A DNA stretch of 24,187 nt. It comes from a virus. This document shows positions 4,158-9,422 of the stretch, in pieces; within the stretch, counting starts at the first letter, position 1; each line of letters opens with the position of its first letter. Below the pieces are notes generated by a model, which saw only the letters and a list, made by a program, of their open reading frames with translations, was not told the origin of the DNA and ran no database searches. A program made the translations under genes and the position numbers. The stretch covers positions 1-24,187 of IMG/VR virus record IMGVR_UViG_3300043823_000176, one strand, 5' to 3'.

Positions 4158-5687
4158 ATGGCAGTTTATCAACGCCCAGGCGTGTATGTGTCAGAAACAT
4201 TGACACCTACTCCGCCATCCGCTGGAGTTGCTACAAACGTTGCTGCCGCCTTTCTCGGCGCAGTAAATCAAGGTCCAGCAACACCAACGCTCGTTACATC
4301 TTGGAGTCAATTTACTCAGCTATACGGTAGCTGGGCATATGACACTACAGACACATTCCGCTTAGCTGTCTACTCATTCCTAGTTCTAGGGGCAGGTGGA
4401 CAATGCTACATCCAACGTGTAGCAGCTTCAGGTGCTTCAACCGCTTCTCGTTTATTCCTTGACTCAAGTGGAACAGGCAACACTATTGGTACTGCCAACA
4501 CAATGGCTATCAATGCTCTTAGCTCTGGTGCTTGGGGTAACAATATTTATGTAGATGTTGTAAAACAATCTGCAACTACTTCTCGTTTCTCTCTTGTTGT
4601 GTACTACGGAAGCAGCGCTATCAATAGTGTTGTAGAGCGTTGGAACGACTTGTGCATGGATGTAACAGACCCTCGTTACGCACCACAGGTAATCAACGGA
4701 GTATCACAATGGATTACTCTTACCGATGAGTCAGATACAGCTTCTGAGCCAGGAAAGTCTCCATTCGCTGTAGCTGGTGTACAACTTGCTGGTGGAGCAA
4801 ATGGTTCTGGTGGACAAACAGCCACAGCTGTTTCTACAGCAGTAACAGGCTTTAACACAGTAAACCAAAGCCTTCTTATTAATGCTCCTGGAATTACAGA
4901 CTCTACTTCAGTAAACACACTTCTTTCATATGCTGTTGGTCGTGCAGACTGCTTTGTAATAATTGACCCAGGCTATCAAGACGTTTCAGATGAGCTCACT
5001 TTGTCTGCTGCGTATACTCAAACATCTTATGGTGCTGCGTACTATCCAAACATTACAATCGCAGACCCAACAACAAACGCTCCAGGAGCTACAAAGTCAA
5101 TCGCTCCAGGGGGTGCTGTTGCTGCAGCATACGTAAAAACAGACAGCAGCCGTGGAGTTTTCAAGGCACCAGCTGGTCTCCAAACACGTTTAGGTGGAGT
5201 AGTTAATGTTGCTCCAATCGTAAGCGCTGACTTAGATTCTCTAAACTCAGGTGGAGCAGCAGGAGTTCCTGTTAACGCAATCCGCTTCATCAATGGAGCT
5301 GGCATTGTTATCATGGGTGCTCGTACACTTCAACAAGGTTATGTAACCATGTACATCCCAATTCGTCGTACATTGATTTACTTAGAGAAAGCGCTAAATG
5401 ACTTAACTAAGTTCGCCTTGTTTGAGCCAAACGACGGCACATTGTGGAGAACAATCAACGCAACAGTAAGCAACTTCCTTAATTCCTTCTGGCGTCAAGG
5501 TGGCTTGCGTGGCACAACCCCACAACAAGCTTTTTATGTTGTATGTGACTCTACAAATAATAACGTTTCAAGCATCGATGCTGGAATCGTCAACATCAGC
5601 GTTGGAGTAGCTCTACAACGTCCAGCAGAATTCGTTGTCATTAATATTGCACAATATGACGGCGGAACAGTAATTACAAGCGCATAA
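4158..5687 (+). CDS. Tail sheath protein
   Basis: This 509-residue protein is the contractile sheath. It starts MAVYQRPGVYVSE, matching the conserved PGVYvsE strand used for linking sheath subunits. Near the C-terminus come 'YVTMYIPIRRTLIYLEKALNDLTKFALFEPNDGTLW', the RR(T/V)..yie.sl......fepN...lw signature, and 'VNISVGVALQRPAEFVVINIAQYDGG', the C-terminal strand that completes the sheath mesh. The variable middle (about residues 100-340) is Ser/Thr/Ala-rich and is presumably the surface-exposed insertion domain. AAAGGAGATATCTC gives a strong ribosome binding site, fitting a highly made protein. The tube gene follows 11 bases later, the standard pairing. Length is within the usual sheath range. 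Confidence 0.95.
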   Translation: MAVYQRPGVYVSETLTPTPPSAGVATNVAAAFLGAVNQGPATPTLVTSWSQFTQLYGSWAYDTTDTFRLAVYSFLVLGAGGQCYIQRVAASGASTASRLFLDSSGTGNTIGTANTMAINALSSGAWGNNIYVDVVKQSATTSRFSLVVYYGSSAINSVVERWNDLCMDVTDPRYAPQVINGVSQWITLTDESDTASEPGKSPFAVAGVQLAGGANGSGGQTATAVSTAVTGFNTVNQSLLINAPGITDSTSVNTLLSYAVGRADCFVIIDPGYQDVSDELTLSAAYTQTSYGAAYYPNITIADPTTNAPGATKSIAPGGAVAAAYVKTDSSRGVFKAPAGLQTRLGGVVNVAPIVSADLDSLNSGGAAGVPVNAIRFINGAGIVIMGARTLQQGYVTMYIPIRRTLIYLEKALNDLTKFALFEPNDGTLWRTINATVSNFLNSFWRQGGLRGTTPQQAFYVVCDSTNNNVSSIDAGIVNISVGVALQRPAEFVVINIAQYDGGTVITSA

Positions 5688-5698
5688 GGAGATAAATT

Positions 5699-6316
5699 AT
5701 GACAACACCTGACTTAACCCGTTGGTCCGAGCGCCAAACTGACCCGCTACGCAATTTTAAATATTTCGTAGAGTTTCAAGCAGCGTCCAATGGAAACCCA
5801 ATGTTTGACTCAACGATTTCAGGCTTCTCAGGAGGCTTTACATCAGTTCAAGGATTGGCTATCAACACCCAAGCTATTGGATACCGTGAAGGTGGCTTCA
5901 ACACTACTGTTCACCAAATCCCAGGGCAAACATCCTTCCAACCTATCGTTCTAAGTCGTGGCATGATTTATGGTCAAGACCAAGCGATTACTTGGATGCG
6001 TGGTTTGTTCGCAGCAGCAGCGGGTCAACAACTTCCGCTAACTGGTGCTGACTTCCGACTAGACGTAAAAATCTACGTTCAGGACCAACCATCAGCTAAC
6101 ACAAACACAGCAGGAATCAACAATGTCACCTCTAGAGCAGTATTTACAGCACACAATGCGTGGATTACTGGTCTAAGCTATAGCGACCTAAACGGTACAG
6201 ATAACAACTTGCTATTCGAGACAATGACACTTGTCCACGAAGGCTTGGACGTATTCTTTACTGACCCAACAACAAACAATCAGATTACTTCACACTCATA
6301 CACAACCACACTATAA
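5699..6316 (+). CDS. Tail tube protein (T4 gp19-like)
   Basis: A 205-residue protein beginning MTTPDLTRWSERQTDPLRNFKYFVEFQ, the typical opening of gp19-type tubes (DPlrnf.F.ve...). It continues with 'ISGFSGGFTSVQGLAINTQAIGYREGG' and 'QTSFQPIVLSRGM', matching 'f..vsGl..e.e...y.EGg.......pg......i.l.rG'. These strands form the beta-barrel that stacks as hexameric rings inside the sheath. AAGGAGATAAATT is a strong ribosome binding site. The position between sheath and chaperone/tape measure is canonical. Confidence 0.93.
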   Translation: MTTPDLTRWSERQTDPLRNFKYFVEFQAASNGNPMFDSTISGFSGGFTSVQGLAINTQAIGYREGGFNTTVHQIPGQTSFQPIVLSRGMIYGQDQAITWMRGLFAAAAGQQLPLTGADFRLDVKIYVQDQPSANTNTAGINNVTSRAVFTAHNAWITGLSYSDLNGTDNNLLFETMTLVHEGLDVFFTDPTTNNQITSHSYTTTL

Positions 6317-6339: not shown

Positions 6340-7131
6340 GTGCCAACTACATCGGACCCACGTATCGTCAATAAATTAGCAGAAGAGTTGACGGCTGGAA
6401 CTCAGGAGAACTTTCAAGTTGCTACTGAGGCTCCAGCCGACACTCTGGTAAAACTTCCAGCAGGTCTTATTAATAAAGATAGAACCGTTAGTAAGGTAGC
6501 TGAGATTCGAGAACTTAATGGTCTTGATGAAGAAGCAATTGCAAAGTCTGGGAATACCTCAAAGGCGTTGCTGACAATCCTTCAAAGAGGTCTACTTACT
6601 ATCGGAGAGCGTCAACCAGTAAAAGAGGACTTTGATGCAATGCTCTCTGGTGATAGAGACTCAATCTTGTTGGGTATCCGTAAAGCAACTTTTGGTAGAA
6701 CCGTAGAGTACACAGGATACTGTGTAACCTGCGACGGTCCTAAAGAATTTACAATTGATTTGGATAAAGACATTGAAGTAAAAGAATTAGATAACCCGCT
6801 TGAGCGCACATGGACACTCCCTATTAAAGCTGGTCGAGCAGTTATCTCACTACCTAACGGAATTACCCAAAGAAAAGTCATGGACAACCAAGACAAGACT
6901 TTGGCAGAACTAAACACAATCATTCTTGCGGGATGCGTACTCAGTATTAACGAATCCCCGACAACTCCGAACACCGTTCTAGAACTTGGAATACAAGACC
7001 GTGAAACTCTTATCAGAGAGATAATTGACCGTAACCCAGGTCCGCGCCTTGGGGAGGTGACAAAGGCTTGTGAGGCATGTGGTACAGACGTTGAGTTACC
7101 ACTAAGTCTCGCTTCTTTGTTTCGACTATAA
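6340..7131 (+). CDS. Tail assembly chaperone, gp26/gp51-like zinc-ribbon family (upstream product)
   Basis: A 263-residue protein from a GTG preceded by AAAGGAGCACC. It shows the layout of T4 baseplate-hub-assembly/tail-chaperone proteins: an N-terminal 'VSKVAEIRELNGLDEEAIAK' segment at about 50-69, 'GDRDSILLGIRKATFGRTVEYTGYC' at 104-128, and two Cys pairs, C128/C131 and C244/C247, which probably form a zinc ribbon. It ends CEACGTDVELPLSLASLF, like the 'C..Cg..v.lpl...F' tail of the family. Lying between tube and tape measure, it should bind and protect the tape measure during tail assembly. The end of the frame contains a candidate +1 shift site (UUU at 7120) into an overlapping frame that closes at 7276. 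Confidence 0.75.
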   Translation: MPTTSDPRIVNKLAEELTAGTQENFQVATEAPADTLVKLPAGLINKDRTVSKVAEIRELNGLDEEAIAKSGNTSKALLTILQRGLLTIGERQPVKEDFDAMLSGDRDSILLGIRKATFGRTVEYTGYCVTCDGPKEFTIDLDKDIEVKELDNPLERTWTLPIKAGRAVISLPNGITQRKVMDNQDKTLAELNTIILAGCVLSINESPTTPNTVLELGIQDRETLIREIIDRNPGPRLGEVTKACEACGTDVELPLSLASLFRL

Positions 7132-7153
7132 AGCAGATGATTATGAAGGACTG

Positions 7154-7276
7154 ATGGACCAGTACGAAGTTCTTAGTAGAGCTTTTGGTTGGACACTCAG
7201 TGATATACGAAGTCTTTCTTTTAGAGAAAGAAAGAACTGGCTCGAACGTTCTAGGAGGGGCTTAAGTGGCAGGTAA
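7154..7276 (+). CDS. Second tail assembly chaperone ORF, probably read by +1 frameshift from the gene before
   Basis: The frame is open from 7106 to TAA at 7274-7276. If translated independently it would begin at the ATG at 7154 (40 residues), but GAAGGA sits only three bases upstream, a poor distance. The meaningful sequence starts earlier (YKADDYEGLMDQYEVL, then AFGWTLSDIRSLSFRERKNW, ending in basic residues). It fits the short helical C-terminal chaperone domains, 'fGWt..di..L..rER.nWL', made by frameshifting in many phages. The shift would be +1: UUU (7120-7122) before CGA can slip to UUC. That gives a 311-residue fusion, Phe261 followed by Asp-Tyr-Lys. The frame overlaps the tape-measure start by 11 bases. 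The domain call is fairly firm, the mechanism inferred. Confidence 0.6.
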   Translation: MDQYEVLSRAFGWTLSDIRSLSFRERKNWLERSRRGLSGR

Positions 7277-9422
7277 ACGCCAAGACCTTGTTGATTTAGT
7301 TGCACTCTCAGAGAAGCTTGCCCAAAATCTGGAGAGAAGCAACAAAGCTTCCATGGGAATTCACAACAGTCTGTTTGGTGCTGGACAAGCAGCGGGCTCT
7401 ATTGTTGGTGGGGGAAGTAACCCTGGTGGTGGTGGAAATGGAATTCTTTCTGGACCTAACAATAGGGGAGCAAGCTCAGTAGGAAGTACCATTGGCTTTG
7501 CTGCAGGCATGCTTGGAAAAGTAGCTGGTGCTACAGTACTTGCTGCAGTAAACAACCTTCCTAGCCCACAACAAGCCGCAGCGTATCAACTCGCTACCGC
7601 AAATCAATCATTTTTTGGCAACACTGGTTTCTCTCAGATAACTGCACTACAAAAGGCTTTGTCAGCTGGCGGTACTGCTATCAGCTCACAAGACGCTGTT
7701 AACGCAATTGCATCCTTGCAAAGTAACCGAATTTACAACGTAGGCTCTATTGCCTCTGGGGTAGGCGCTCTTTCTAACTACGCACCTAATCTAGGAATCG
7801 CAGGCACAGCTCAAGCAGCAGCATCATTTAACCAAGCTAGCAGTGTTAACCTGATGAACCAAATTGGTGTTCAAGTACGTGGTGCCAATGGTTTGATGCG
7901 AGACCCTAACCAAATAGCAAATGATTTTGTAGACAAGATTTGGCAAGAAACTCCCCCACTTCAAGGAAGCGCTTCACAGGCATACGCCTATCTAATAGGA
8001 GCCTTACAACCAGGTAACCAGCTTTACTTTATTCTTAATACCTATGTACAAGACCCAAACACACAGCAAATAATTATTAATAAGTTATTTGCTAAAGCAA
8101 AGGGGTTGCCAGGAACTGCAACAAAACAACAGCTTCAATCAGCAGGCTTGTTAACAGCAACAACAAATCAAATGAGCACATACAACACTGCTCAGCTTGG
8201 TCTAACACAGGCAACCCAACAGTCAATAAATGAGGGAACTGTTTCTGCATTAAAAATGTTAACAACAGCTACTAATGATTTTGCAGGTGCGGCTAAAAAC
8301 TTAGGCGGTCTTTTGAAAGCCTATGGATATGGAAGCACAGCCATGGGCGCGGCGGGAACAGGTGCCAGTTCATTGCTTGGCGGGCTTGCTGGAAATCTTC
8401 TGGGAACTGCTGGCGCATCTGTTGCCTCAAAATTATTTTCTAAAGCTGGTTCTTTCATTAAAGGCTTTTTTAAAGGTGGTATTTTATCTGACGCTGAGAA
8501 GGTAGCTCTTTTTCTTGGTGGTGAAGCTCTTGACCCTGCGGGCGGAGGAGCAATTGCGGATGCTGCTCTAACAGAGGGTATCAGTAGTGGCACTATGAGC
8601 ACCGTGCTTGGAATTCTTAAAGGAAGAGCATCTGGAGGACCTGTAGGTAGTAAAACTCCTTACATTGTTGGTGAAAAAGGTCCTGAGTTCTTTATTCCTA
8701 AATCTGATGGGATGATTATTTCTAATAAAATCTCTAATCAACTTGGCTTATTTAGAGCCGATAGTGGTGGAGTAAGCGCTGGTGGGGCTACTCCATACAG
8801 CGGTAGTAAGTTAACTCAAGACCAGTTAAGTGCTGTATTACAAGCAGCTGGTTTTTCTGGTAACGCACTCAGCACTGCGCAAAAGGTTGTGGGTATTGAG
8901 TCTGGCGGACTTCCTACAAACTTAAATCCTAATGCGAGTACTGGTGATTACTCCATGGGTCTTTTCCAAATTAACATGCTTGGTCAAATGGGTGTTCAAA
9001 GAAATGCCGAATACTTGAAGAAGTATGGTTCTATCGGGTACACAGGACCTTCCAGTTTATACAACCCAGCTATTAACGCCAAGATTGCATACGACATGTC
9101 TGGTGGCGGAACTGACTGGTCACCATGGTCAAACACTATGCGAAAGCTAGGTATGAGTACAGGTGGTGGAGTAGCTAGCTCTGGTGGTGGAACAACTATC
9201 AACACAGTCAACGGTATCTATAACCCAGGTTTACTTCAAAATGGATTTGGCACAGGAGCTCCAGGGACAGTTCTCGCATCTATGAGCGGTTCTATGCCTG
9301 CGTTTACTATTAACATAACAGTACCGCCAAGCACTGACCCACATCAAATTGCTAAAATAACAAGTGCAGCTCAAACTGGAGTTACTGCGGGACTTAAGAA
9401 GACAGGAGTGGTGAAGAGCTAA
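7266..9422 (+). CDS. Tape measure protein with an internal lysozyme-like / lytic transglycosylase domain
   Basis: A 718-residue protein from a GTG with AGGAGGGG upstream. Residues 1-30 are helical, followed by Gly-rich linkers and Ala/Gly-rich hydrophobic stretches (about 70-95 and 355-400) typical of tape measures. Residues 455-485 carry the recurrent tape-measure signature GGPVGSKTPYIVGEKGPEFFIP followed by DGMIISN. Residues about 515-628 form a lysozyme-like domain with GIESGG (Glu545 the likely acid), SMGLFQIN at 563-570, then 'LYNPAINAKIAYDMSGGG.DWSPW', matching 'iESgG....d.SiGLfQiN...l.dP..Na..A...s..G..WspW'. This domain would open peptidoglycan as the tail injects DNA. The end of the protein (MPAFTINITVPP...) is a beta segment often seen at tape-measure C-termini. 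Length suggests a tail near 100 nm by the usual length rule (inference). Confidence 0.9.
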   Translation: MAGKRQDLVDLVALSEKLAQNLERSNKASMGIHNSLFGAGQAAGSIVGGGSNPGGGGNGILSGPNNRGASSVGSTIGFAAGMLGKVAGATVLAAVNNLPSPQQAAAYQLATANQSFFGNTGFSQITALQKALSAGGTAISSQDAVNAIASLQSNRIYNVGSIASGVGALSNYAPNLGIAGTAQAAASFNQASSVNLMNQIGVQVRGANGLMRDPNQIANDFVDKIWQETPPLQGSASQAYAYLIGALQPGNQLYFILNTYVQDPNTQQIIINKLFAKAKGLPGTATKQQLQSAGLLTATTNQMSTYNTAQLGLTQATQQSINEGTVSALKMLTTATNDFAGAAKNLGGLLKAYGYGSTAMGAAGTGASSLLGGLAGNLLGTAGASVASKLFSKAGSFIKGFFKGGILSDAEKVALFLGGEALDPAGGGAIADAALTEGISSGTMSTVLGILKGRASGGPVGSKTPYIVGEKGPEFFIPKSDGMIISNKISNQLGLFRADSGGVSAGGATPYSGSKLTQDQLSAVLQAAGFSGNALSTAQKVVGIESGGLPTNLNPNASTGDYSMGLFQINMLGQMGVQRNAEYLKKYGSIGYTGPSSLYNPAINAKIAYDMSGGGTDWSPWSNTMRKLGMSTGGGVASSGGGTTINTVNGIYNPGLLQNGFGTGAPGTVLASMSGSMPAFTINITVPPSTDPHQIAKITSAAQTGVTAGLKKTGVVKS

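Follow-up and report, generated by a model that had tools for sequence, protein, structure and literature searches.

A probable +1 programmed ribosomal frameshift at a conserved UUU_C site joining two tail assembly chaperone frames in contractile-tailed phages

We analysed a 24,187-base virus record from IMG/VR (IMGVR_UViG_3300043823_000176; the whole stretch is called the window below), in which a contractile-tail operon comprises a sheath, a T4 gp19-like tube protein, a putative tail assembly chaperone (open reading frame 1, ORF1), a small overlapping frame (ORF2) and a tape measure. Comparison of this locus with its relatives indicates that positions 7061–7276 very probably carry a +1 programmed ribosomal frameshift, which would give two tail assembly chaperones from one start. 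The sequence comparison points to this through a conserved +1 overlap together with a UUU_C motif, signs of coding and selection in the second frame, few independent starts for that frame, and a covarying RNA structure.

The +1 overlap and its probable UUU_C shift site

The overlap has the following layout:

6340–7131, plus strand: ORF1, putative upstream tail assembly chaperone and zero-frame product of 263 amino acids, GTG start (T4_baseplate PF12322 / phrog_150)
7103–7105, plus strand: TAA stop of the +1 frame, the 5' limit of the possible shift window (read from the sequence)
7120–7125, plus strand: candidate +1 shift site UUU_CGA (UUU 7120–7122, CGA 7123–7125)
7129–7131, plus strand: zero-frame TAA stop terminating ORF1 (read from the sequence)
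7121–7276, plus strand: ORF2 in the +1 frame, a P2 E'-like C-terminal helical domain of about 50 amino acids after the shift, predicted to be reached by frameshift only

The +1 frame is open from 7106 to 7276, encodes VSLLCFDYKADDYEGLMDQYEVLSRAFGWTLSDIRSLSFRERKNWLERSRRGLSGR up to its stop codon and lies directly 5' of the tape-measure gene. Because the TAA at 7103–7105 and the ORF1 stop bound the overlap, a ribosome could cross between the frames only within 7106–7131. In a computed translation, a +1 slip on UUU yields ...SLASLF-DYKADDYE..., a product of 261 + 50 = 311 residues. The original prediction, made from the letters of this stretch alone, had described the same ORF1 stop, +1 frame and crossing window, all of which the sequence confirms, and recomputing its fusion of about 311 residues returned the same size and the same LASLF-DYKADD junction.

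Nucleotide BLAST against isolate phages gave no match, and relatives were obtained by protein search: a scan of viral contigs yielded 39 relatives of ORF1 and a profile scan yielded 528. Scans from distant members, five Streptomyces phages and seven bacterial-genome loci were added, giving a survey of 125 distinct loci with the seven bacterial-genome loci counted separately, and clustering of the ORF1 sequences at 70% identity gave 59 clusters. The ORF2 frame was detectable in 122 of the 125 distinct loci and was +1 relative to ORF1 each time (122/122). All seven bacterial-genome loci also have the +1 frame with UUU_C; six of them are actinobacterial, with a GC content of 64–69%.

An in-frame UUU followed by C was present 6–18 nucleotides (nt) 5' of the ORF1 stop in 54/59 clusters, compared with 13/1113 (1.2%) control 12-codon windows of the same genes. 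From the UUU/UUC usage of each locus, the probability that all 54 clusters would use UUU is ~1e-20, and for the ten clusters with a GC content of at least 60% it is ~1e-11. UUU is kept in genomes of 63–69% GC, where this codon is rare; at one locus (L036), UUC accounts for 64 of the 65 other Phe codons. Neither the third base of UUU nor the C after it varies (2.0 bits each), compared with 0.0–0.6 bits at most neighbouring third positions. The codon that would occupy the A site is CGN in 97 of 112 distinct loci, CAR in 10 and CTN in 5, so the amino acid varies but the C is constant, and the base needed for Phe-tRNA to re-pair on UUC therefore never changes. P-site UUU, C at +3 and a CGN A-site codon are the features of the UUU_CGN class of +1 sites (PA-X, amalgaviruses), and all three are found here. 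A -1 frameshift was considered and rejected, as the second frame is never -1 in the 122 loci and no canonical -1 heptamer (X_XXY_YYZ) occurs in the last 75 nt of ORF1 in any of the 54 clusters.

Substitution patterns suggest that purifying selection acts in the +1 frame. For ORF2 codons 11–20, the ratio of nonsynonymous to synonymous polymorphism (pN/pS) is 0.15 in the +1 frame versus 0.81 and 2.73 in the other frames, and for codons 5–10, which lie past the ORF1 stop, it is 0.52 versus 0.91 and 1.85. Starts for this frame are scarce: 31/54 clusters have no ATG, GTG or TTG in its first 16 codons, and a Shine-Dalgarno (SD)-like motif precedes a second-frame start codon in 2/54 clusters versus 37/49 for the tape-measure start. 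Relatives thus share a pair of overlapping frames in which the second lacks a start of its own, as is typical of tail chaperones. The direction (+1) and site (UUU_CGA) put forward in the original prediction hold in this comparison of more than 100 loci. The prediction had further named a strong start with its own ribosome binding site in relatives, or a shift window that is not conserved, as findings that would speak against it, and the figures above show the reverse on both counts.

A predicted RNA hairpin 5' of the shift site

Directly 5' of the shift site we also identified an RNA hairpin, which is new here and had been missed by the original prediction. Its predicted parts are:

7061–7119, plus strand: 5' RNA hairpin adjoining the shift site (from folding energy and synonymous covariation)
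7070–7076/7106–7112, plus strand: middle stem
7079–7084/7097–7102, plus strand: apical stem
7061–7066/7114–7119, plus strand: basal stem, predicted in the window and poorly conserved

Across 54 clusters, the 60 nt directly 5' of UUU fold with a mean z of -2.1 relative to shuffled sequence, and the other 60-nt windows from -240 to +180 give mean z values of -0.1 to -1.0. Randomising codons in the hairpin region while preserving the protein gave z values of -2.3, -1.8 and -2.05 in three groups; the -120 to -60 control was also low in two groups by codon randomisation, not by dinucleotide shuffling. In the 31 clusters of the window's lineage, the apical stem pairs in 91% and the middle stem in 84% of cells, and the both-side changes and covariation score beat 500/500 shuffles and all slid versions. 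The two most strongly covarying pairs (A-U 10/U-A 10/C-G 3 and U-A 14/C-G 7) link third codon positions to each other, so constraint on the protein does not explain their covariation. Pairing in the predicted fold ends 1–8 nt 5' of UUU. RNAalifold found no common structure in a second lineage group, because its sub-lineages differ in the register of the hairpin.

No other stimulator emerged from the regions searched. Downstream of the site, +6 to +66 gave a mean z of 0.03 and +6 to +106 a mean z of -0.9, no better than neighbouring windows; internal SD motifs are depleted in the 20 nt upstream (6/54 versus 28% in controls). On balance, we consider that the hairpin probably has a stimulatory role in the frameshift, a view held with clearly less confidence than the shift itself.

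Encoded proteins and variation among related phages

The neighbouring genes of the operon are:

4158–5687, plus strand: sheath gene
5699–6316, plus strand: tail tube protein gene (PF06841, 1e-20; phrog_4542, 3.6e-21)
7266–9422, plus strand: tape-measure gene with an SLT_3 lysozyme-like domain and a GTG start overlapping the end of ORF2 (phrog_10574, 1.3e-4; PF18896, 1.4e-13)

The position of the pair between tube and tape measure is the gene order expected of tail chaperones. ORF1 matches Pfam T4_baseplate in 35/35 members, with a weak match to Phage_TAC_7 (0.0093) in one. Its AlphaFold model (predicted local distance difference test score, pLDDT, 88.7) has the HK97 tail assembly chaperone 2ob9 as its closest PDB structure (Foldseek probability 0.98, E 0.11); the two align over 95 residues, part of ORF1 only, with a VIA Z of 7.5, a value in the range below 8 that may reflect a common arrangement. 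The model thus gives good, although not final, grounds for an HK97-type tail assembly chaperone fold. ORF1 had been predicted to be a gp26/gp51-like chaperone: the chaperone part stands, and the baseplate (gp26/gp51) label gives way to the HK97 chaperone as the best PDB fold match. The proposed role of the two products, as fused parts of a tail assembly chaperone encoded between tube and tape measure, holds up in the comparison across more than 100 loci. Two Cys-x-x-Cys pairs in ORF1 (C128/C131 and C244/C247) are conserved and may form a zinc ribbon; several ORF1 relatives weakly match zinc-ribbon Pfam models.

ORF2 matches Pfam Phage_P2_GpE in 18/36 relatives (best 6e-5) and, by hhalign, P2 E' itself (78% probability, E 1.7e-5). 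ORF1 and ORF2 were modelled as separate chains, and the ORF2 model consists of three helices (pLDDT 85). A link to contractile injection systems through DUF6760 was rejected, as the match is weak (7/36 members, best 0.0056) and the locus inspected has its own ATG. That locus (L206, minus strand of the Saccharothrix sp. ST-888 genome) encodes a DUF6760 protein distantly similar to ORF2 after a short ORF ending in CPSC; its ATG overlaps the upstream stop (ATGA), and the counterpart there would be a separate gene.

The order of sheath, tube, ORF1 and tape measure is kept in the bacterial-genome loci examined, and the position between tube and tape measure is shared by Streptomyces phages and by prophages. 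In GenBank, the Streptomyces relatives are annotated with two separate genes or with the first gene only. ORF2 is unannotated in Streptomyces phage pSt2308 (L044, PV588686.1, 3210–3452) and is given as a separate hypothetical gene in other Streptomyces phages (L041, L042, L043, L046), with a frameshift join in none of these.

In a sister clade (L117, L122, L132, L138 and neighbours; for example L122 3150–3185 and the end of L138 ORF1), the junction lacks UUU_C, and among the shared codons only CUU followed by Y (CUU_UUA or CUU_CUA) could re-pair at +1. This alternative is present in 4 clusters and is also adjoined 5' by a hairpin. The sister clade thus seems to have switched its P-site codon and kept the 5' hairpin. 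Its CUU resembles the P-site codon of the release factor 2 gene prfB, but is not followed by a stop codon. Two more distant second frames escaped the ORF2 profile and were recognised by eye. In Pseudomonas phage PA5oct (L207, NC_071039.1, 2575–2842, gp336 'baseplate hub'), the last codons of the related gene are AGT TTT TTC AGA GAA TCC TAG, and it overlaps a -1 frame that continues for about 70 amino acids, at U_UUU_UUC, which suggests an unannotated -1 frameshift in PA5oct-type jumbo phages. In Listeria phage LIS04 (L045, OQ999172.1, 3180–3443), an unannotated second frame is +1/-2, with a run of six U (GAG TTT TTT AGT) before the ORF1 stop. The chaperone fusion therefore seems old, with a route to fusion that has changed several times.

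Among other features of the window, 2406–2905 holds three short consecutive Lys/Ala-rich ORFs (2406–2543, 2527–2709 and 2669–2905), the last with a CATCGCK motif.

Alternative explanations and proposed mechanism

Several points count against a frameshift as set out here. UUUC was sought within the last 12 codons, which leaves some choice of site, and the clusters are not fully independent phylogenetically. The chaperone role of ORF1 and ORF2 is assigned by homology and position. In the window, some independent initiation may also occur at ATG 7154, the sole in-frame ATG near the front of the second frame; the window is one of the two clusters with an SD-like motif, an AAGGA that lies only 3 nt 5' of this ATG, too close for a good SD. 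The hairpin overlaps conserved coding sequence, its basal stem is unsupported, with pairing in about 50% of cells, and other lineages use hairpins of another register at the same place (by eye; for example CCCGCUGAACGUGGG and UUCCGCUAACUUUAGCGGAA), so that its role is less sure than the shift.

If ORF2 were a separate gene translated from its own start and coupled to ORF1 termination, no frameshift would be needed, and ATG 7154 with its AAGGA, the deposited Streptomyces annotations and the ATG of the distant Saccharothrix DUF6760 gene would fit. We regard this as very improbable, considering that most clusters are startless over the first 16 codons and nearly all lack an SD-like motif. Conserved residues of ORF2 (F1 and Y8) also precede the ATG, and helix 1 of its predicted structure (residues 5–22) runs through it, so that starting there would halve the helix. 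Finally, a separate gene leaves unexplained both the constant +1 frame and a UUU_C that is invariant even at 63–69% GC. A real shift that is -2, or takes another route into the same frame, was considered similarly improbable. Phage Mu is a known case of a -2 chaperone shift, and the U6 run of LIS04 could permit one; from the UUU of this family, though, a -2 slip would put the tRNA on UGU, UAU or UCU, mispaired at the middle position, and bases -1 and -3 vary, whereas the C at +3 needed for +1 re-pairing never does. A hairpin that arises only from conservation of the CxxC protein segment, with no part in frameshifting, is a more serious contender, which we think possible and somewhat doubtful. 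It would account for the position within the coding segment K-A-C-E-A-C-G...L-P-L-S-L, for the weak basal stem and for the differing pairings of lineages; it does not account for covariation between third positions at two pairs (0/500 shuffles, far above slid versions), for folding energy below that of protein-preserving randomisation, for the absence of any comparable 60-nt window nearby, or for the hairpin that adjoins the site in the sister clade, where the shift codon differs.

We therefore prefer a +1 slip at UUU_C, and we infer that the slip occurs, as well as its efficiency, the part played by the hairpin and the roles of both products. Most ribosomes would terminate at the TAA at 7129, giving the 263-residue chaperone. 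In a minority, while UUU 7120–7122 occupies the P site and CGA the A site, Phe-tRNA would move one base forward onto UUC (7121–7123), and these ribosomes would continue in the +1 frame as far as 7276 and produce a fusion of about 311 residues with a C-terminal helical domain. The hairpin would refold behind the ribosome, most likely promoting the forward slip. If the two products act as they do in lambda (G/GT) and P2 (E/E+E'), the short form would coat the tape measure, and recruitment of tube protein would fall to the fusion.

The gene pair, its position and its logic match those of P2 E/E+E', including the order of sheath, tube, E/E' and tape measure and a short C-terminal extension overlapping the tape-measure start, and the shift direction differs: in P2, a -1 shift (annotated site 19685) adds E', whereas the window's locus would shift +1 at UUU_C. 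P2 E is also shorter, with 91 amino acids compared with about 260 and the Cys pairs in ORF1. Lambda G/GT and HK97 gp13/14 likewise use a single start for two products, in genes between tube and tape measure, but shift -1; here the shift would be +1, at another site with a 5' hairpin, in a myophage with a T4-like tube protein. To our knowledge, phage tail-chaperone frameshifts are nearly always -1, and bacterial +1 sites are dominated by prfB. At prfB (CUU_UGA), as proposed here, a +1 shift has an upstream stimulator next to the E site; the window's family differs in having a sense codon in the A site and few SD-like motifs in the 20 nt upstream.

The site itself is closest to those of influenza A PA-X, fijiviruses and amalgaviruses, which share the P-site UUU, the invariant +3 C and the preference for CGN in the A site (PMC3498833; PMC5052127). 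Those are eukaryotic RNA viruses, whereas here bacterial ribosomes and a 5' hairpin would be involved; for PA-X, a stimulatory structure is not evident (PMC5009743, a review). On 70S ribosomes, synthetic hairpins placed upstream, beside the E site, stimulate +1 shifting with ~60% of the strength of an internal SD, and do so too when the A site holds a hungry sense codon (PMC6321510). Those constructs share with the phage element a hairpin on the E-site side of a +1-prone site and, probably, a slow A-site codon, and are engineered, whereas the phage hairpin is an evolved, covarying element in phage genes. The phage element would hold the parts of that design: a hairpin, a P-site tRNA that moves from weak to strong pairing (UUU to UUC) and possibly a slow codon in the A site. 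Known +1 frameshifting in phages includes Listeria phage structural genes, and the tail chaperone of the archaeal myovirus HSTV-2 is a suspected case (PMC5009743). PRFect lists 350 forward cases from SEA-PHAGES, with no general forward motif known (PMC10885494). We found no description of UUU_CGN or a 5' hairpin in phage tail chaperones in the open-access literature, subscription papers being outside the search.

Taken together, we lean slightly towards a naturally evolved +1 cassette for bacterial ribosomes, combining a refolding 5' hairpin with UUU_CGN, that is kept across a large phage group and independently matches the influenza/amalgavirus class, with an mRNA hairpin in place of the internal SD of prfB and with the same 5' hairpin serving CUU_Y in the sister clade. 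If so, the UUU_CGN motif of eukaryotic viruses would also work on bacterial ribosomes, and the hairpin would give a natural example of a stimulator described up to now in engineered mRNAs. Probably hundreds of phages, considering the 528 relatives of ORF1, would then make the same chaperone by +1 slippage, in a gene that annotators have split or missed.
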